The position numbers were made by a program, and so were the translations under genes. A stretch of 34,236 bases of DNA from IMG/VR virus record IMGVR_UViG_3300028786_000153, positions 1 through 34,236 of that record. One strand, written 5' to 3'. The notes below the pieces were generated by a model that saw only the letters and a list, made by a program, of their open reading frames with translations, was not told the origin of the DNA and ran no database searches. Below are positions 463-34,236 of this stretch, piece after piece. This DNA comes from a virus. Positions within the stretch are counted from its first letter, which is position 1, and each line of letters begins with the position of its first letter.

Positions 463-768
463 TCAGTGCTGCATACTGACCCACTTTGCGATTGCGACGA
501 GGATTGCGATCACCACCGCGAAGCTGATCCAGCTAGTTCCAGATGATGAACTGCTGCTGGCCGGTCGCTGCTCCTGGTCGGTTCGGTTGGAATAAACGTT
601 TCGATGAGATATCCCGGTGCCGGGTATGCCGACTGAGGTGCTCGTCTTGTCTTTGCCGAATGTGACGCGGGCACCCTTCACGCCGGCAGAGATGCTGGCT
701 CCGCGCTTGCCAACGTTGAGGCTGATGCCCGGCGCGAGTTTGATCTTCTTGCGAAATTGCAGGCCCAT
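463..768 (-). CDS. DUF4236 protein with C-terminal membrane segment
   Basis: This 101-residue protein has an N-terminal DUF4236 signature: FRKKIKLAPGISLNVGK, then a repeated GARVTFG pattern and VGIPGTGIS. A Gln/Ser-rich linker follows (about 60-78), then one hydrophobic helix (about 80-97), so it is probably membrane-anchored with the small beta-rich domain on one side. It lies 77 bases downstream of the repressor gene on the same strand, preceded by a GGAG site, so it is probably made in the lysogen from the repressor transcript. This is the place that rexAB occupies in lambda, so a lysogen-expressed exclusion or envelope role is possible; that role is inference. The family's function is not known to me. 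Confidence 0.75.
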   Translation of the reverse strand: MGLQFRKKIKLAPGISLNVGKRGASISAGVKGARVTFGKDKTSTSVGIPGTGISHRNVYSNRTDQEQRPASSSSSSGTSWISFAVVIAILVAIAKWVSMQH

Positions 769-845
769 GTCACCACTCCGTAGCTCCGAATTTTCGTGAC
801 GCCATTCGCTTGTCAGGAAAGAAGTACAGGCGCGCTAGGCGCACC

Positions 846-1253
846 TCAGCCTTCTGTTCCGGTGCTTTTGGCGGGCGACGTTGCTCCCAACACCGCTCCG
901 TCAACCATAAGCTGAATGCCTGTTCGAACGTGCTCTGGGAGTGAGTAGTACTTCTCAGGAGCGACGCGCTCAAAGGGCCAGTTGGAATATCGCGGCCTAG
1001 GTTCTTCAGCTGTCAGAACCGTCGGCGAATTCGCCTCTCGAGAGCCTTTGCCGGTCAACAGCCACATTGGGTTGACTTCCAGGAACGCGGCGGCGCGCAG
1101 CAGGGGCTCCGCCTTCATATTCTCTGGGCTGGTGATCGATCTCATCCAATCGGAAACAGTTGCATCGGACACTCCGGCTCTGCGCGCCAGCTCAGCTTGG
1201 GAGGCCTTCCCCTTTATGCATTCCTTCAATCGGCCCGCGAACGTCGTCGTCAT
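846..1253 (-). CDS. cI-like phage repressor, HTH without peptidase domain
   Basis: This 135-residue protein starts with a classic HTH_3 domain (about 5-65): SQAELARRAGVSDATVSDWMR, then LEVNPMWLLTGKG. The C-terminal 65 residues show no S24/LexA-type peptidase motif, so it is shorter than lambda CI and probably not inactivated by RecA-stimulated self-cleavage. The gene faces away from the Cro-like gene with a three-operator cluster (1254-1312) between them. One operator directly abuts its ATG and overlaps its ribosome site (TAGGA), which suggests autoregulation. A candidate maintenance promoter has a fair -10 (TAACAA, 1280-1275) but a poor -35 (1303-1298) that overlaps the 1301-1312 operator, as expected if bound repressor activates it. 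Role as lysogeny repressor is inferred from fold and position. Confidence 0.85.
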   Translation of the reverse strand: MTTTFAGRLKECIKGKASQAELARRAGVSDATVSDWMRSITSPENMKAEPLLRAAAFLEVNPMWLLTGKGSREANSPTVLTAEEPRPRYSNWPFERVAPEKYYSLPEHVRTGIQLMVDGAVLGATSPAKSTGTEG

Positions 1254-1265
1254 TAGGTAATCCTA
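1254..1265. promoter_or_regulatory. Operator OR3-like
   Basis: TAGGTAATCCTA keeps both arms of the repeated palindrome and lies immediately before the repressor start codon, across its ribosome site. Occupancy here would shut down repressor synthesis. Confidence 0.6.
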
Positions 1266-1278
1266 CGGCCCCCATTGT

Positions 1279-1290
1279 TAGGTGTACTTG
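1279..1290. promoter_or_regulatory. Operator OR2-like (degenerate right arm)
   Basis: TAGGTGTACTTG has an intact left arm but a degenerate right arm. It overlaps the -35 of the rightward promoter and the candidate -10 of the repressor promoter. Its centre is 25 bp from the operator at 1254 and 22 bp from that at 1301. Confidence 0.5.
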
Positions 1291-1316
1291 ACTTGAACCA
1301 TAGGCATGCCTAACAA
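1288..1316 (+). promoter_or_regulatory. Rightward early promoter (PR-like)
   Basis: TTGACT (1288-1293), a 17-base spacer and TAACAA (1311-1316) form a good sigma-70 promoter. It mirrors the leftward promoter in spacer length and in having the palindrome TAGGCATGCCTA run into the -10. The predicted start near 1322-1323 is only two or three bases before the GTG of the Cro-like gene. Confidence 0.75.
1301..1312. promoter_or_regulatory. Operator OR1-like
   Basis: TAGGCATGCCTA is a perfect palindrome identical to the copy at 415-426 and overlaps the spacer and -10 of the rightward promoter. Confidence 0.75.
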
Positions 1317-1324
1317 TCGGCGCG

Positions 1325-1591
1325 GTGAACGATTCAGATCTGATTGACTTGCTCGGTGGCACCGCTGTCGTTGCGAAGCGCACTCGAACGCGGCCGGCTT
1401 CCGTGTCCGAATGGCGCACGGCTGGGATTCCGGTCGGACGACGCATCGAGCTAGGCGCGGCCATAGAAAAGGCAGGGGGCGGTATGCGTTGGGACCAACG
1501 TCCCGACGACTGGTTTGAGATCTGGCCCGAGCTGGTCGGCGCCGAGGGCGCGCCCGAGGTTCCGGCAACTGCTTCGAGAGAGGCGGCTTGA
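1325..1591 (+). CDS. Cro/YdaS-like small regulator
   Basis: This 88-residue protein has a short HTH of the YdaS/Cro type: LIDLLGGTAVVAKRTRTRPASVSEWRT, then GIPVGRRIELGAAIEKA and the RPDDWFEIWPELVGAEG tail that recurs in this family. In phages these proteins compete with the repressor for operators and favour lytic growth. The start is GTG at 1325; an in-frame TAG at 1301-1303 limits any extension, and no alternative ATG lies near. No ribosome site is visible and the predicted transcript starts two or three bases upstream, so the mRNA may be leaderless. It is the first gene of the rightward early operon. Confidence 0.85.
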   Translation: MNDSDLIDLLGGTAVVAKRTRTRPASVSEWRTAGIPVGRRIELGAAIEKAGGGMRWDQRPDDWFEIWPELVGAEGAPEVPATASREAA

Positions 1592-1611
1592 GATGGATCG
1601 CTCCTGGTTCG

Positions 1612-1875
1612 TCAATGGAGTGGTGACCCGCCGCTCGCAGCATCTGGACCGGACATGTGGCCGATGGCGACGTGCAGCGCCCGAAGCAGATCCTGCGCGG
1701 CGGCAGGCGTCAAGCGATGACGAATGCCAACCGAAAGCCTTGGCGCGGCAGGATTTGGGCGAGTGTGGAACTGCAGATCGATGGCCTTCAGGCCCTTCGG
1801 AAGATCCAGGTTCATGACCTCGAAATCGACGACCAGTTCTATTGGCCCCGGTCTCGGGCTGAGTTTCGATTTCAT
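1612..1875 (-). CDS. Small unknown protein, antisense to the early operon
   Basis: This is an 87-residue leftward frame with normal-looking protein composition: an acidic-hydrophobic strand pattern (IELVVDFEVMNLDLP), then LSVGIRHRLTPAAAQDLLRALHVAIG. Third codon positions are mostly G or C as in its neighbours, and a weak GAGAG site precedes the ATG at 1875. It is convergent with the Cro-like gene and divergent from the gene at 2045, so it would be transcribed against the rightward early operon. I do not recognise the family. Several overlapping rightward frames here look less protein-like. Moderate confidence only. Confidence 0.55.
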   Translation of the reverse strand: MKSKLSPRPGPIELVVDFEVMNLDLPKGLKAIDLQFHTRPNPAAPRLSVGIRHRLTPAAAQDLLRALHVAIGHMSGPDAASGGSPLH

Positions 1876-1991
1876 GGGTGCTCTCGTGGGTGAAGTTGTG
1901 GTCCTGAGAACCCGCAGCGTAGCCCACGCAGGGCGCCCACTCCGTCTTGCAAACCCAGTCCCAACGACGCCGCTGCTCTTGAGCGGCTTTC

Positions 1992-2019
1992 ACACCTCGG
2001 GCCTTCGGGCCTGAGGTGT
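1992..2019 (+). terminator. UUCG hairpin before the replication genes (tR1-like candidate)
   Basis: Arms 1992-2003 and 2008-2019 form a 12-bp stem (one G-U pair) closed by a UUCG tetraloop. A pyrimidine-rich run CTTCTCCCTTT follows at 2020-2030. It lies between the Cro-like gene and the next early gene, where lambda has tR1, so it may be a terminator or attenuator of the early rightward transcript. The T-tract is weak, so a structured leader is the alternative. The rest of 1876-2044 shows no gene; a short CGTGGG/CCCACG pair (1885-1890, 1923-1928) is the only other structure seen. Confidence 0.5.
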
Positions 2020-2044
2020 CTTCTCCCTTTACCGGTAGGCCGCC

Positions 2045-2281
2045 ATGGCACTTGAACGAAAAGACATTCGCGCCAAGCTCGACGCAGACGCGCACGCCAA
2101 GCTGAAGGCCATTTGCGAGATCGAGGATATCGACATGGCCGACTTCATCGAGCGTGAGTTGTTGCCGGTGATCAAGAAGCGGGTTCATGACGCTATGGTG
2201 CTGGCGAACAAACTCCAGCGCCTGGGATTAACCGGGAGTGCGCACCGGTCATCGGGAAAACCCGGGACTGCCCGGGAATAG
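2045..2281 (+). CDS. Small early phage protein, ribbon-helix-helix-like
   Basis: This 78-residue protein starts ALERKDIRAKLDADAHAKLKAIC, then DMADFIERELLPVIKKRVHDAMVLANKL. The opening strand and two amphipathic helices resemble Arc/MetJ-type ribbon-helix-helix proteins, and similar short proteins sit before phage replication genes. It occupies the cII position of a lambda-like map, so a DNA-binding role is plausible but not shown. The C-terminal 13 residues are encoded by a GC-rich stretch with two CCCGGGA repeats and may be variable. It ends seven bases before the next gene. Confidence 0.7.
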   Translation: MALERKDIRAKLDADAHAKLKAICEIEDIDMADFIERELLPVIKKRVHDAMVLANKLQRLGLTGSAHRSSGKPGTARE

Positions 2282-2287
2282 CGCGAA

Positions 2288-2560
2288 ATGTCAGCCGCAG
2301 TACCGCTTCGCGCCGATGAGCGCGACCCGACCGAACGCCTGAGCGCTGACGATCAGGCCACGCAGCGCGAGGCCGAGTTCCTGCAGCGCGCGCTGCTCAA
2401 CCAGCAATCCAAGGCGATGCGCCTGCCGCAGGGCGTGCCCGGTGTCTGCTCGAACTGCGTCGGGCGCTGCATGCCGACGGCGGTGTATTGCGACGAGTGG
2501 TGCCGCACCGATCACGAGTGGCGCCTCGGCCTGGCCAGGCGCACAGGGGTTCGCCGATGA
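2288..2560 (+). CDS. Cys-rich putative zinc-binding early protein
   Basis: This 90-residue protein has a polar helical N-terminus (about 10-45) and a Cys cluster: C54-x2-C57, C61, C68-x3-C72 and H76, enough for a zinc site. It recalls small phage zinc proteins (TraR/DksA-like or zinc-ribbon) but the spacing does not match the usual TraR finger well, so I give no symbol. Its stop overlaps the start of the primase-helicase gene by ATGA, so the two are probably translationally coupled and may act together in replication. Confidence 0.75.
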   Translation: MSAAVPLRADERDPTERLSADDQATQREAEFLQRALLNQQSKAMRLPQGVPGVCSNCVGRCMPTAVYCDEWCRTDHEWRLGLARRTGVRR

Positions 2561-27934: not shown

Positions 27935-30064
27935 ATGACGAAGTTTCTGTCCCGCCTGCTTGTCGCAGCCGCCGCGGTCGCGATCGGCCTGCCCGCCGCC
28001 GCGCAGCCCCAGAAGATCAGCGCGATGCCGTCGGCGACGACGCTCGCCGGCACCGAGTACCTGGCCGGCATCCAGACGGGTGCCAACGTGAAGGTGACGC
28101 CGGCCCAGGTGCTCACCTACATCCTGTCGAGCCTGCCGGGCTCGTCGATCTCGACGACCAATCTCACGACCACCGGCCTGGCGCTCACCGCGGCCAGCGC
28201 CACCGGCGGCGCCGGGCTGCGGCTGCCGCACGGCGCCGCGCCCACGTCGCCCACCAATGGCGACGTCTGGACCACGACGGCCGGTGTCTTCGCGCGCGTC
28301 AACGGCACCACGGTCGGCCCGTTCGGTGCGGCCGGCTCCGGCACCGTCACGCACACCGGCGGCGCGCTCACGGCGAACCAGCTGGTGATCGGCGCGGGAA
28401 CCGACGACGTCGCCGCGCTCGGATCTCTCGGCACCACGACGACCGTGTTGCACGGCAACGCCGCCGGCGCGCCGACCTTCGCCGCGGTCTCGCTCAGCGC
28501 CGACGTCTCGGGCAATCTCCCGGTGACGAACCTGAACGGTGGCAGCAGCGCCTCGAGCAGCACCTACTGGCGCGGTGATGGCACCTGGGCCACGCCATCA
28601 GGCGGCACGCCGGCCGGCTCGAACACCTACGTCCAGTACAACAACTCGGGCGCGTTCGGCGCCGAGGCAGCGTTCACGTACGACGCCAGCACGAACACGA
28701 TGACGGTCGAGAAGATCGTCATGGCCGGCGCGGTCAACGACTTCAAGGGCGCGGACATCGCGCGGGCCACGACGACCGACATCGGGGCGGCCACCGGCAA
28801 ATACGTCGAGCTCACGGGCACGACCACCGTCACCGGCCTCGGCACGGTGCAGGCCGGCACGATCCGGCATGTGCGCTTCGCCGGCGCAGGTACGCTCACC
28901 CACAACGCGACATCGCTGATCCTGCCGGGTGCGGCCAACATCACGACCGCCGCGAACGACACGGCAAGCTTTGTCAGCCTGGGCTCGGGCAACTGGCGCT
29001 GCCTGCAGTACACCAAGGCGAGTGGCCTCGCGACCGTCGTCGGCAGCCCGACCATCACCGGTTTCACGGCCAGCCTGAACAACACCAGCCCGAACATCAC
29101 GGTCAACGCGTCGCGCTTCATCAGCTCGGCCGCGTCCACGCATGCCGCGGTGGTCCTGCAGCCGAAGGGCAACGGCTACATCGCGGCGCAGCTGGCCGAT
29201 GCGACCGCCACGGGCGGCGACGTGCGCGGCGACAAGGCGGTCGACTGGCAGATGGATCGCTCGGTGTCCACCTCGGTTGCCGGCAGCACGGGCACCGTCA
29301 TCGGCGGCGGCTACGACAACTCGATCCTCGGCAGTTCGTCGCAAGCCACGATCGGCGGCGGCTACAACAACACCATCGGTTCAGGCGCGCCGTACTCGAC
29401 CCACGCCGGCGGCCGCGGCAACGCCATCAGCGGCGCCTATGGTGCCAACGGCGGCGGGTACCTCAACACGCTGGGGTCGAACAACTTTGCCGCCAACGTG
29501 GGCGGGACGAACAACGTCTCAACCGGCACCGGGTCGACGACGCTCGGCGGCGACAGCAACACCGCAGACGGCGACTACTCGCTGGCAATGGGGAACAAGG
29601 TTCTGGTGCGCGGAATGATGGGCGCATTCGCACACAACAGCGGAGTCCCGTCCACCGGCGTTGCCGGCGACCGCCAGTCCCGGCACGCGACGCTGCAGGC
29701 GAGCTCGACCAGCACGACGCCGGTCATCCTCACGTCCGATGGAGCGGCCGCCGGCGGCGCGAATCAGTTCGTGCTGCCCAGCGGCAGCGGCCTGAGCATG
29801 AATGGCCAGGTGGTCATCCGGAACACGTCCACCGGGACGGTTGGCCGCTTCTCGGTCTTCGGGCTGTGGAAGAACGTGGCCGGCACCGTGACCCTCGTCA
29901 CGTCGGTGGTCGGCGCCTACCAGGGTGATGCCGCGCTCAACGCCACCACGCTCACGGCCGTGGCCGACAACACCAACAAGGCTGCCCAGCTCTCGTTCGT
30001 TGGCCTCGCGTCCAACAACATTTCAACCGTCTTCGAAGGCTGGACTGCTGAAGTCGGCAACTGA
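27935..30064 (+). CDS. Tail fibre with Sec-like N-terminus and YadA-head-like repeats
   Basis: This 709-residue protein has an N-terminus with basic residues, an Ala/Val-rich hydrophobic core (about 8-20) and AAAQ at 21-24, a good Sec signal by eye. It then reads [33 protein letters not shown], a pattern common at phage fibre starts. Long Thr/Ala/Gly-rich beta repeats follow. Residues 454-558 carry GGGYDNS, GGGYNNT, GGGYLNT and similar units like the YadA/Hep_Hag left-handed beta-roll, which implies a trimer. The C-terminal ~150 residues are a likely receptor-binding or folding domain. The ATG at 27935 follows GGAG; a GTG one codon upstream is possible. Confidence 0.75.
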
Positions 30065-30094: not shown

Positions 30095-30520
30095 ATGAAC
30101 CCACCACCGCCCCAGCTCGAGTTCGTGGCCGTGATGACCACGCTCGCCTCCGTGCTCTTCGGGCGCGAGATGGCGGGGATCGTCGGCCCCTACGCCGCGA
30201 TCATCTTCGGTGCCGCAATCGGCGGCTTCCTGTCGGCCAGCCGGCGCCCGCAGACCACGCGCACGGCAACGTTCGCGTACGTCGTGCTGATCGTGCTGGT
30301 CGCCTTGCTGTTCACGGCCACGGCATCGCAGTTCGTCAGCAGCTACTTCAAGTTCGAGGACGCCAGGCCCTTCTTCGGTCCGGTGGCCTTCGTGATTGCC
30401 TGGGTCGGTCCGGACTGGCCCAAGGCCTACCCCTGGGCCGTCTCATTGGTCCGCGCCTTCATCGAGCGGCGAATCGGCGCGGCCCCTCCCAACCAGCCGC
30501 CGCCGGGAGGTTCTGCATGA
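30095..30520 (+). CDS. Small membrane protein, holin candidate
   Basis: This 141-residue protein has three hydrophobic segments (about 28-50, 60-77 and 92-105) and a charged, Pro-rich C-terminus. It lies just after the fibre gene and before a second membrane protein, the secreted beta-helix protein and the endolysin, so it is the likely holin or part of a holin pair. The N-terminal MNPPPPQLEF is polar. No specific holin family motif is recognised. It ends in an ATGA overlap with the next gene. Confidence 0.65.
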   Translation: MNPPPPQLEFVAVMTTLASVLFGREMAGIVGPYAAIIFGAAIGGFLSASRRPQTTRTATFAYVVLIVLVALLFTATASQFVSSYFKFEDARPFFGPVAFVIAWVGPDWPKAYPWAVSLVRAFIERRIGAAPPNQPPPGGSA

Positions 30521-30879
30521 ACTGGGACTGGGTCGAGTTCCGCACGTGGTGCGCGTTCGTCAATCTCTGCCTTTGCTGCGCGATCGGAGTGGTGTGCATC
30601 TGTCGGGCCTCGGCCATGTCGAAGGACACGACCCGAAAGCTCACACGCGGTGCCTACACCCTGATCTTCGGCGCGGCGACGCTCAGCGGCTGGTCGCCGT
30701 ACTTCTTCCGCGAGTGGCCCGGCTTCGGCGAGTGGCCAGGCATCGCCGACATCGCCATGGCGACCGCGGTGCTCGTCTACATGGCTTCCGGCACGCGCGC
30801 CTGGAAGTTCGGCCTTCCTGACTTCGCCAGGAGCAATGCCGCGCCCCTGGATCCCCCCAACGAGAGGACATTCTCATGA
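30517..30879 (+). CDS. Second small membrane protein, holin or antiholin candidate
   Basis: This 120-residue protein has three predicted membrane helices (about 14-32, Cys-rich; 42-59; 76-93) and a polar C-terminus. It is coupled by ATGA to the first membrane protein and by ATGA to the secreted protein after it. Two adjacent holin-like genes often act as holin and antagonist or as two independent hole formers. Its family is not recognised. Confidence 0.65.
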   Translation: MNWDWVEFRTWCAFVNLCLCCAIGVVCICRASAMSKDTTRKLTRGAYTLIFGAATLSGWSPYFFREWPGFGEWPGIADIAMATAVLVYMASGTRAWKFGLPDFARSNAAPLDPPNERTFS

Positions 30880-32762
30880 AACGTTCATTCACGCTCTGCG
30901 CGCTCTTCGCCTCGGCGGCTGCACAGGCGACCACGGCCGTTGCGCCCCTGCCGGCCAACAGCACGTGGTCCTTGATTCGCAGCGCGACGACGGTCAAGAG
31001 CGGCTTTCCGACCGCACAAGCCTGCTGGGATGTGGTCCAGGCCGACACGGAAATGCGCAAGGCCAGCTCGCAGTACCGCTGCCGGACCGACCTGATCTTC
31101 GCATCGAACTACACGCCAGGACCGGCCGGCACGTGGACGAAGGCCACCGACGAGAACAAGTCGTTCACGGTCCCTGCCGGTGGCCAGCAGGCCCGCTTCG
31201 GCGCCGGCACGAAGTGGGTCGAGCTCTTCCTCCAGGCCGGAACCTACGTGTGCGCACAGCCTGCGACGTTCCCGAGCGACCCGGCCCCCAACGTCTACAA
31301 GGAATGCGATGTCCTCGCTGCTGCGGCGCCTGCGCCAGCGCCGGCGCCAGCTCCGAGCCCTGCACCCGCACCGGCCCCGGCGCCATCACCTGCCCCAGCG
31401 CCTTCTCCAGCTCCTGCGCCGGCACCGTCACCTGCGCCGGCTCCTGCCCCAGCTCCGAGCGGGCCGCTTGCGGTGACGCGCACGAGCTGCACCGCGCCGT
31501 GCGCTGTGTTGTTCGACGCGACCGCGATGGGCGACTTCCGCTCCACCTACACCTTCGACTTCGGCGACCCGACCGCCGGCACCTGGCCGATCAGCGGCAA
31601 GCCGAAGAACACCGAGGTCGGCGGCCCGATCGCTGCGCATGTGTTCAACCTGCCAGGCATCTTCGCGCCCAAGGTCAACGGCGTGGCCGTGACGATCGCG
31701 GTGGCCGACCCGAACGTGGTGTATGCCGGCGCCAAGACGGTGTGCGTGAGTCCCGCAAAAGACTACACCGGCTGCCCGGCCGGCGCGGCGCAAGGGACCT
31801 CGATGCCCACCGGCACCGCCTGGAGCGGCAAGCGCGTGCTGCTGCACACCGGGGAAGCGTTCGGCGACATCAGCGTCCTGGACGGCAACGCGGCCGTCCA
31901 GATCGGCGCGTACGGCGCTGGCGCGAAGCCGGTGGTGGCTTCGGTCGGGATCGGCAACTGGCGGCCCCTGACGGCCTCATTTCCGACCGACATCACGGTG
32001 ATGGACCTGAACGTCTCGAACCAGATCAGCCAGAGCCTCGGCTCGCGTGTGCTGATCCTGCGCAACGACGTGCATCTCACGCCGAACAGCGGCGGCATTC
32101 CGCTGTCCATGGGTGAGCTCGACTACTGGTACCGCGGTGACAAGGACCGCACGGTACCGCAGAGTGCGTTCTACAACGCCCGGGAGATCTTCTTCGTCGA
32201 GAACAACGCGCTCGGCTCCGACACGAAGACCGGCGTTATGGGCTTCTGGGGCGACGGCTCGCGCGTGGCGCTGCTGGGCAACCGCTTCGGCAAGTACCAG
32301 CAGCACAGCGCCCGCTTCAGCGCGCTGCACAAGAGCGTGCTCGCGCACAACGAGTTCCAGGGCATCAGCGCCGATGGCATCCGCGTCGCCCTGAAGCTGC
32401 ACAGCATGGGCTTCAACGACTACACCGATGGCGCCATCAACGACACCTCGGGCCGAGGCGGCTGGGCGACCAGCCAGGTCGTCATCGCCAACAACCTCTT
32501 CGGCAACGCCGCCGACAACAACGTCTGGACGGTCGCGATCGCGCCGCAAAACTCCACGACCGGCGAGGGCATCCAGGACGTGATCGTCGAAGGCAACCGC
32601 TTCGTGCACAGCAGGACCACCACGACGGACCTGGTCTACCTCGGCCGAAGGATCACGACGCGCGGCAACACGGTGACGGGTGGCGGCAAGGTGATCGTCG
32701 GGCCGGAGACCAACACCGAGGTGCCGGCCGCCTGGGCCGGGCCGAACTTCCTCGAGCCCTGA
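30876..32762 (+). CDS. Secreted PKD/beta-helix protein in the lysis region
   Basis: This 628-residue protein is built as signal peptide (KR, hydrophobic core, AQA|TT near residue 18), a Cys-containing N-terminal domain (about 20-147; C50, C69, C126, C144), a 49-residue Pro-Ala-Ser linker (148-196), a PKD-like domain (about 198-275; YTFDFGD, HVFNLPG), and a right-handed beta-helix (about 330-600) with repeated strands such as VALLGNRFG, SVLAHNEFQG, QVVIANNLFGN and DVIVEGNRFVHS. Such helices are found in polysaccharide lyases and depolymerases, but no catalytic residues can be assigned. It is translationally coupled to the holin-like genes and precedes the endolysin. A periplasmic or surface role, cargo in the lysogen, or a virion protein are all possible. 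Confidence 0.75.
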   Translation: MKRSFTLCALFASAAAQATTAVAPLPANSTWSLIRSATTVKSGFPTAQACWDVVQADTEMRKASSQYRCRTDLIFASNYTPGPAGTWTKATDENKSFTVPAGGQQARFGAGTKWVELFLQAGTYVCAQPATFPSDPAPNVYKECDVLAAAAPAPAPAPAPSPAPAPAPAPSPAPAPSPAPAPAPSPAPAPAPAPSGPLAVTRTSCTAPCAVLFDATAMGDFRSTYTFDFGDPTAGTWPISGKPKNTEVGGPIAAHVFNLPGIFAPKVNGVAVTIAVADPNVVYAGAKTVCVSPAKDYTGCPAGAAQGTSMPTGTAWSGKRVLLHTGEAFGDISVLDGNAAVQIGAYGAGAKPVVASVGIGNWRPLTASFPTDITVMDLNVSNQISQSLGSRVLILRNDVHLTPNSGGIPLSMGELDYWYRGDKDRTVPQSAFYNAREIFFVENNALGSDTKTGVMGFWGDGSRVALLGNRFGKYQQHSARFSALHKSVLAHNEFQGISADGIRVALKLHSMGFNDYTDGAINDTSGRGGWATSQVVIANNLFGNAADNNVWTVAIAPQNSTTGEGIQDVIVEGNRFVHSRTTTTDLVYLGRRITTRGNTVTGGGKVIVGPETNTEVPAAWAGPNFLEP

Positions 32763-32765
32763 GCC

Positions 32766-33344
32766 ATGATCTCCGCCGACCAACTCGCCGCGTGCACCGG
32801 GGCGTCGCTGCGGCTTGCGACGGCTTGGCTGGACCCGCTCAACGCCGCGATGGATGTCTTCGCGATCACGACGCCCCTGCGCATCGCGGCATTCCTCGCC
32901 AACGTCGGCCATGAATCCGGCCGCCTGGTCTACCCGCGCGAGATCTGGGGCCCGACCGACGCGCAGCGTGGCTATGAGGGCCGAAAGGATCTCGGCAACC
33001 TCAGGCCCGGCGATGGCAAGCGCTACCTCGGCCGCGGCCCCATCCAGATCACCGGCCACGCGAACTACATCGTCATGCGCGACAAGCTGCGCGAGTACCT
33101 GCCCGGCGTGCCGGACTTTGAGCAGTCGCCTGAGCTGCTCGAGCTCCCGCGCTGGGGCGCCTACGCCGCCGGTGGTTATTGGCTCATGCATGGCCTCAAC
33201 GCGCTGGCCGACGCCGGCGACTTCGACGGCGTGTGCGACGTCATCAACCGCGGCCACAAGACGGAGCGCGAGGGCGACAGCAACGGCTATGCCGAGCGCC
33301 TGCAGCTGTACACGGCGGGCAAGGCCGCGCTCGGGATCGCGTAG
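32766..33344 (+). CDS. Endolysin, glycoside hydrolase family 19
   Basis: This 192-residue protein is a GH19 chitinase-like lysozyme that cleaves the glycan strands of peptidoglycan. It has the ANVGHESG motif with catalytic Glu50, a region YEGRKDLGNLRPGDGKRY, and the hallmark GRGPIQITGHANY. There is no signal peptide, so it must depend on a holin for access. It lies four bases after the beta-helix gene stop and is followed by the spanin genes. Confidence 0.92.
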   Translation: MISADQLAACTGASLRLATAWLDPLNAAMDVFAITTPLRIAAFLANVGHESGRLVYPREIWGPTDAQRGYEGRKDLGNLRPGDGKRYLGRGPIQITGHANYIVMRDKLREYLPGVPDFEQSPELLELPRWGAYAAGGYWLMHGLNALADAGDFDGVCDVINRGHKTEREGDSNGYAERLQLYTAGKAALGIA

Positions 33345-33406: not shown

Positions 33407-33703
33407 ATGTCCTATTCATTCGGCTTCAAAGCTGCCAACAAGGCCGACGCCAAGGCGAAGATCGCGGCCGAACTCGACAAGGTCGTCGCGATGCAAGGCG
33501 TGCACTCCAAGGATCGTGTCCAGGCCGAGGCCGCTGGCACTGCCTTCGTCGACCTGCTCGATGACGATGACTCGAAAGACGTCTCGGTATCGATGAGCGG
33601 TTCCCTTTCTGGCAACTGGTCGGGCAACGATCTCACCTCGTTCACCGGCGCCAACGTCTCGGTCAGCGCTGGCCTGGTCGCCAAGGAAGCGGCGGCCACG
33701 TGA
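33407..33703 (+). CDS. Small phage protein of unknown function in lysis cassette
   Basis: This 98-residue protein reads SYSFGFKAANKADAKAKIAAELDKVVAMQ, then AAGTAFVDLLDDDDSKDVSVSMSGSLSGNW and a short beta end. The helix-then-beta layout occurs in short conserved phage proteins of unknown role. No signal peptide or membrane segment is seen. AAGGAA lies ahead of the ATG at 33407; the preceding 62 bases hold nothing recognisable. The stop overlaps the Rz-like start (TGATG). Confidence 0.65.
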   Translation: MSYSFGFKAANKADAKAKIAAELDKVVAMQGVHSKDRVQAEAAGTAFVDLLDDDDSKDVSVSMSGSLSGNWSGNDLTSFTGANVSVSAGLVAKEAAAT

Positions 33704-34236
33704 TGAACCCGCTGTCGCTCATTCCGACGAGCTGGCTGTGGCCGGCGGCGGCCGTGGTGGGCGCAGCGCTCCTGGCCGGTCTCGGCACACAGACCTGGCG
33801 CTTGCACACAGAGCAGGCGGGCAGGGCGACGGACCGCGCCAGCATGGCCGAAGAGCGCCTGCTGGCCAGCCGCGCGACGGCGCTCGAGGAGGCGCGCAAC
33901 CGCGCCGAGGAAACGCGCGTGCGCGGCGAACAACAGGAGAAGATCAATGAGAAGGACCGACAGCTTGCGAGGGCTCAGGCCGATCGCGTCGACGCTGACG
34001 CTGCTACTGGCAAGCTGCGCGAGCGTTTCGCCGCCGCTTTCGCCAGCGCCCGTCAAGCCACTCGAGATCCCACCGTTGTCGCCGGCGGCGCGGCAGCACC
34101 GGCCTCCGATCTGCCAGCCGACATGTTCGGCCGGGTACTCGAGATTGCTCGACAGTATCGGGATGCCGCCGAGTCCGCCATCACCGCCGGCGAGCTCGCC
34201 GAAGGCAGCTACGACTCGTTGAGGTCGACGCCCTGA
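33703..34236 (+). CDS. Rz: Rz-like inner-membrane spanin (DUF2514-like)
   Basis: This 177-residue protein has one N-terminal membrane helix (about 12-28), a long periplasmic coiled coil (about 35-115, Ala/Arg/Glu-rich) and a C-terminal region with ADMFGRVLEIARQYRDAAESA and EGSYDSLR, typical of DUF2514/Rz. With the outer-membrane partner it should fuse the two membranes at the end of lysis. The ATG at 33703 overlaps the previous stop; a GTG one codon earlier is possible. The gene ends exactly at the window end with TGA. Confidence 0.82.
   Translation: MNPLSLIPTSWLWPAAAVVGAALLAGLGTQTWRLHTEQAGRATDRASMAEERLLASRATALEEARNRAEETRVRGEQQEKINEKDRQLARAQADRVDADAATGKLRERFAAAFASARQATRDPTVVAGGAAAPASDLPADMFGRVLEIARQYRDAAESAITAGELAEGSYDSLRSTP
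33947..34222 (+). CDS. Rz1: Rz1-like outer-membrane lipoprotein, nested in Rz
   Basis: This 91-residue protein lies wholly inside the Rz gene in another frame. It has a basic N-terminus, a hydrophobic stretch and the lipobox LASC with Cys24 as lipidation site, then a Pro/Ser-rich mature part (SVSPPLSPAPVKPLEIPPLSP). The ATG at 33947 has AGGAGA six bases upstream. Nesting, lipobox and high proline are the hallmarks of Rz1 spanins. The mature form should be anchored in the outer membrane and bind the Rz coiled coil. Confidence 0.82.
   Translation: MRRTDSLRGLRPIASTLTLLLASCASVSPPLSPAPVKPLEIPPLSPAARQHRPPICQPTCSAGYSRLLDSIGMPPSPPSPPASSPKAATTR

Follow-up and report, generated by a model that had tools for sequence, protein, structure and literature searches.

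A predicted exported PKD/beta-helix protein beside the lysis genes of a phage and its relatives in other gene blocks

What does a large protein with a signal peptide and a beta-helix do among the late genes of a phage? The question is raised by an open reading frame (ORF) for 628 amino acids in the IMG/VR virus record IMGVR_UViG_3300028786_000153, whose positions 1 to 34,236 were analysed as one stretch of 34,236 nucleotides, hereafter the window. We established the gene, its module structure, its fold class and its family by computation and weighed several accounts of its role. The account that we favour, with about even confidence, is a Sec-exported, disulphide-bonded relative of spike modules that acts on host surface polysaccharide.

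The ORF is a genuine gene. Its ATG shares the sequence ATGA with the TGA of the gene directly upstream, as a preliminary description of this DNA had stated, and its codon-position GC is like that of the neighbouring genes. Compared with the two closest relatives the changes were fewest at codon position 2 (rates of 0.14-0.16) and most frequent at position 3 (0.35-0.39), thus we conclude that the gene is protein-coding and under purifying constraint. No promoter-like site was found in the region. The order in the window is: fibre gene, two membrane proteins, the 628-aa gene, GH19 endolysin, small ORF and Rz (Table 1). The two genes before it had been called holin-like. Both encode predicted membrane proteins, but neither matched a holin family and the label rests on place and topology. 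For the fibre gene no family match was found either, and a Sec-exported fibre, as its signal-like start would imply, would be unusual. At the left end of the window (466-2557) lie divergently oriented repressor, Arc-like and DksA-like genes; because of these repressor-type genes the phage may be temperate.

Table 1. Coordinates of the 628-aa gene, its parts and its neighbours in the window.
Feature	Position	Strand	Evidence
Probable tail-fibre gene, signal-peptide-like start	27935..30064	+	read from translation
141-aa membrane protein, two predicted segments, holin-like by place only	30095..30520	+	
120-aa protein, one predicted membrane segment, ATGA-coupled upstream gene	30517..30879	+	
Gene of the 628-aa PKD/beta-helix protein, predicted exported	30876..32762	+	ORF, ATGA overlap, purifying constraint against L002 and L003
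Signal peptide, residues 1-18, predicted cleavage site behind AQA	30876..30929	+	rule-based score 28.2
N-terminal region, residues 19-80, Cys 50 and 69	30930..31115	+	alignment; no Pfam match
'WTK' domain (our label), residues 84-145, Cys 126 and 144	31125..31310	+	
Pro/Ala/Ser spacer, about residues 148-196	31317..31463	+	sequence
PKD domain, residues 198-281, Cys 205 and 209	31467..31718	+	homologous copies, model
Right-handed beta-helix domain (modelled), residues 282-626, Cys 290 and 300	31719..32753	+	AlphaFold2 model, Foldseek
H477-x-x-R480, candidate functional residues	32304..32315	+	present in 9/9 members
GH19-type endolysin	32766..33344	+	phrog_181, E 7e-55
Rz-like spanin, ORF runs to the window end	33700..34236	+	phrog_312, E 2e-20; DUF2514

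Annotation by present means would miss the protein, since it has no Pfam match above cut-off, no significant PHROG and no meaningful NCBIfam match, and since 50,697 phage records contain no relative; no cultured phage was found to carry it. Relatives were also absent from 72,556 plasmids, PADLOC reported no defence family, and peptide scans of genome contigs gave no bacterial relative, which rules out close bacterial copies only. The family comprises nine members: the window protein and eight relatives from uncultured phages. Two of these are close and come from IMG/VR: L002, whose contig measures 46 kb, and L003, whose 118-kb contig carries tRNA genes. In the helix domain both are 74-75% identical to the window protein, and the other common genes are less similar or absent. 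Two motif scans added L025/L029 and L027/L032, and a scan for the PKD motif added L040/L061, L044/L062, L048/L063 and L051/L064; most matches of the latter scan were due to chance and these four are real by architecture. L021 (a match to DYWYRGD) and L026 were chance matches as well, and the weak Aeromonas matches H2 and H3 are not relatives. Phages carrying close versions of the protein are few and unrelated, and the domain layout was not found in a limited literature search.

We called signal peptides by a simple rule rather than with a trained predictor; 44 of 1079 background ORFs meet this rule. The previously claimed signal peptide of the window protein was predicted again (MKRSFTLCALFASAAAQA^TT, type I-like), and six of the nine members reached scores of 28-35 (window, L002, L003, L032, L061 and L062), while L029 and L063 scored 17-18 and L064 failed. 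The mature part of the window protein contains Cys 50, 69, 126, 144, 205, 209, 290 and 300, that is four sequence-near pairs, all of which are retained in the two closest relatives. The number of mature cysteines is even in all six members with a strong signal peptide (8, 8, 12, 10, 26 and 14); the counts in the remaining three are 4, 5 and 10. L029, which has no strong signal peptide, lacks the pair 290/300, and in L027 the cysteines 205 and 209 are lost together. Beyond residue 30 of the window protein there is no membrane segment (maximum 19-residue hydropathy after the signal: 1.45), and neither a beta-barrel nor a lipobox or anchor was seen in its sequence. The retention of six out of nine signal peptides, the even cysteine counts and a window signal sequence that keeps its signal-like character although it is only 28% identical to those of the relatives support export and oxidation, and Sec export is strongly indicated by these sequence features.

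The part behind the signal peptide had been described as a four-cysteine domain. The four cysteines are there, but they are divided between two small regions with two each. The second region is present twice in adhesion protein B (AdpB) of Lactococcus phage 62403 (40.8 and 40.4 bits) and also occurs in a tail protein of Streptococcus phage Javan206 (49 bits) and in a Calx-beta protein of the cyanobacterium Anabaena; no Pfam model was found for it. The Ceduovirus adhesion protein B and the streptococcal tail proteins have this domain in common with the 628-aa protein, but show no beta-helix match and are listed among the virion proteins of Gram-positive phages. It is noteworthy in itself that this stretch of ∼62 residues, for which Pfam gave no model, is common to exported phage proteins, to adhesins of lactococcal and streptococcal phages and to a Calx-beta protein from a cyanobacterium. 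The Pro/Ala/Ser spacer of ∼49 residues was found as described; it is present in L002 and largely reduced in L003. The PKD-like domain is supported through its homologues: the homologous region reaches the cut-offs of PF00801 or PF18911 in L029, L032 and L061, and the window copy, which stays below every Pfam cut-off, keeps the invariant W, KN, GP and AH in the alignment and is modelled with a pLDDT of about 88-96 across most of its length.

For the C-terminal domain Pfam gave a hint only (Beta_helix, E 0.04-0.07). An AlphaFold2 model of residues 198-628 built from nine sequences reached a pLDDT of 76.5 and a pTM of 0.83, with parts of the helix below pLDDT 50 (an earlier model from three sequences, pLDDT 33, was unusable). 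The model shows repeated short strands, and its Foldseek matches, the best PDB structures included, are right-handed beta-helices, namely PL6 alginate lyases, GH136, GH87, the Vibrio biofilm-matrix lyase RbmB and AlgE4, together with phage tailspikes and depolymerases. The TM-scores of only ∼0.3-0.44, about 8-13% identity and a best PDB E-value of about 1e-3 place these matches at the fold level only. On the strength of the model we assign the domain to the right-handed beta-helices. The resemblance to the PL6 lyases and RbmB (Foldseek probability up to 1.00) goes with ∼8-13% identity and TM-scores of about 0.2-0.4, and unlike these bacterial enzymes the 628-aa protein is encoded by a phage in a late operon. 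No sequence match to PL6 was found in Pfam or the PDB, and the PDB sequence matches that did occur mostly reflected the composition of the spacer. Besides the H477-x-x-R480 motif, R503, K507 and H509 are invariant in the closer five members. The basic residues H477, R480, R503 and K507 are kept in the close members, and the cluster that they form with H509 would suit an acidic polymer. The H..R pair and the other invariant polar residues are candidates that have no assigned counterpart in a known catalytic site. A predicted structure had been proposed as the place to look for an active site: the model yields the beta-helix fold and demonstrates no such site.

The gene places of the relatives vary. 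In L002 the fibre-region genes are followed by a membrane protein, the PKD/beta-helix gene, a phrog_3108 protein that we read as lysozyme-like, a membrane protein and a lipoprotein. In L003 we find fibre-region genes, a membrane protein, a holin (phrog_785), the PKD/beta-helix gene, a membrane protein and an endolysin, and L062 has a Gly-rich fibre-like ORF, the PKD/beta-helix gene, a membrane protein and a lysozyme-like ORF (labels by reading). L061 carries the gene behind a fibre-like and a phosphatase-like ORF, both with a signal peptide, and no lysis genes were found adjacent. These are three successive genes with strong signal peptides (L061, 4834-10389: fibre-like, purple-acid-phosphatase-like and PKD/beta-helix), the last of which ends in a Tsp3-like C-terminus. 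In G004 (L032, L033, L069), a 41,124-base record which is probably a complete genome because of its 127-bp direct end repeat, a member with a signal peptide lies in a minus-strand replication block of polymerase-, helicase- and methyltransferase-like genes (labels by reading). Four of the six forms with a signal peptide are thus located between tail/fibre and lysis genes, one beside the fibre- and phosphatase-like genes and one in the replication block. The three members that lack a strong signal peptide belong to head or tail gene blocks of the virion: L029 follows an fn3-domain fibre and precedes a small ORF and, further downstream, ORFs read as holin, endolysin and Rz, and L063 and L064 are found among terminase, portal and CBM96-like ORFs (terminase and portal by reading). 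In these two head blocks a CBM96/disaggregatase-like protein comes directly after the PKD/beta-helix gene (L063, 6540-7193; L064, 3847-4665; family match in L063 only), perhaps a capsid decoration. Tail genes precede the PKD/beta-helix gene in most members, the exceptions being the L063/L064 head block and the G004 replication block. The coupling to lysis genes noted in the window recurs in L002, L003 and L062 but is not intrinsic, as L061 and G004 demonstrate. Given this variation, proximity to lysis genes is frequent but not defining.

The alternative that survives best is a tail spike or fibre of the virion, with either a hydrophobic N-terminus that is not a working signal or a protein that is exported and joins the particles after lysis. 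The positions of L029, L063 and L064 among tail-fibre, portal and terminase genes agree with it, as do the tailspike-like fold, the N-terminal domain known from phage adhesins, and the signal-like starts of the fibre gene upstream in the window and of the fibre gene in L061. However, virions assemble in the cytoplasm, whereas six members keep classical cleavage sites and all of them have even numbers of cysteines; moreover, the G004 member with a signal peptide is encoded among replication genes, in a genome whose ends share a 127-bp repeat. We consider this alternative rather unlikely. Phage beta-helix tailspike depolymerases such as LKA1 gp49 do belong to the same fold class, and some relatives have tail genes nearby. 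In contrast to them the 628-aa protein has a signal peptide, paired cysteines and PKD and adhesin domains, and it gives no sequence match.

We regard as quite improbable that the protein belongs to the surface-modifying morons and, by binding or masking receptors, blocks superinfection or alters the surface of the lysogen. In favour of this role are the signal peptide, the left-end repressor-type genes that suggest a temperate phage, and the relative in a middle/early block, and it has a precedent in lambda Lom, a protein with an N-terminal signal peptide whose gene lies in a similar genomic interval, between those for the tail spike and the tail fibre (PMC12309495). Like the genes of Lom-type morons, the 628-aa gene encodes a signal peptide and is placed between tail genes and later ones. 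Lom, however, is an outer-membrane beta-barrel and our PKD/beta-helix protein shows no beta-barrel, lipobox or anchor in its sequence; its gene has no promoter-like site of its own and is coupled by ATGA to the late operon. The earlier suggestion of a lysis factor of a new kind, acting directly with the holin-like genes, is unsupported and highly improbable: the gene lies between membrane-protein genes and the endolysin in the window, adjoins a holin-family gene in L003 and is near lysis genes in L002 and L062, but relatives occur in replication, head and fibre blocks, which led us to drop the idea, there is no membrane segment besides the signal and no match to a lysis family, and the helix domain stays 74-75% identical while the neighbouring endolysins differ between relatives.

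We return to the favoured account of an exported protein acting on polysaccharide. The 628-aa protein, in which a flexible spacer joins an adhesin-type domain at the N-terminus to a PKD domain and a beta-helix, would be co-translated with the late genes and accumulate outside the cytoplasm, where it would either act on envelope polysaccharide or be freed once the spanins break the outer membrane. The adhesin-type and PKD domains might position the protein and the helix might bind or cleave. Once freed, it could bind, and perhaps trim, polysaccharide of the host surface or matrix and so keep virions from being trapped. The fold matches and the basic cluster hint at a polysaccharide target, an enzyme activity is faintly suggested, and a benefit to particle spread is conceivable to a similarly weak degree. 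As a signal-peptide member occurs in the replication block of G004, the exported form need not be part of the virion or of lysis. Three homologues, whose gene places suggest virion proteins, count against this account. The preliminary description had preferred a surface enzyme over a virion fibre; export and a beta-helix fold known from polysaccharide-active proteins agree with its first half, but the contrast is too sharp, since the protein contains modules of virion adhesins and three relatives are located in head or tail blocks.

Phage depolymerases can be associated with the virion, or they can be soluble and set free at lysis (PMC5380687). A tentative reading, to which we give somewhat less than even weight, is that the family has two forms of one PKD/beta-helix core. 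One, encoded in structural gene blocks, lacks a strong signal peptide and belongs to the virion; the other has a signal peptide and paired cysteines and is exported. Infected cells would release this exported form or display it, and it could serve as a diffusible relative of the spike that prepares the cell surface or the matrix for the progeny. A family that apparently switches between virion and Sec-exported forms, with signal peptide and cysteine content as the marks of the switch, would give a sequence-level handle on the class of soluble depolymerases and make their benefit testable.
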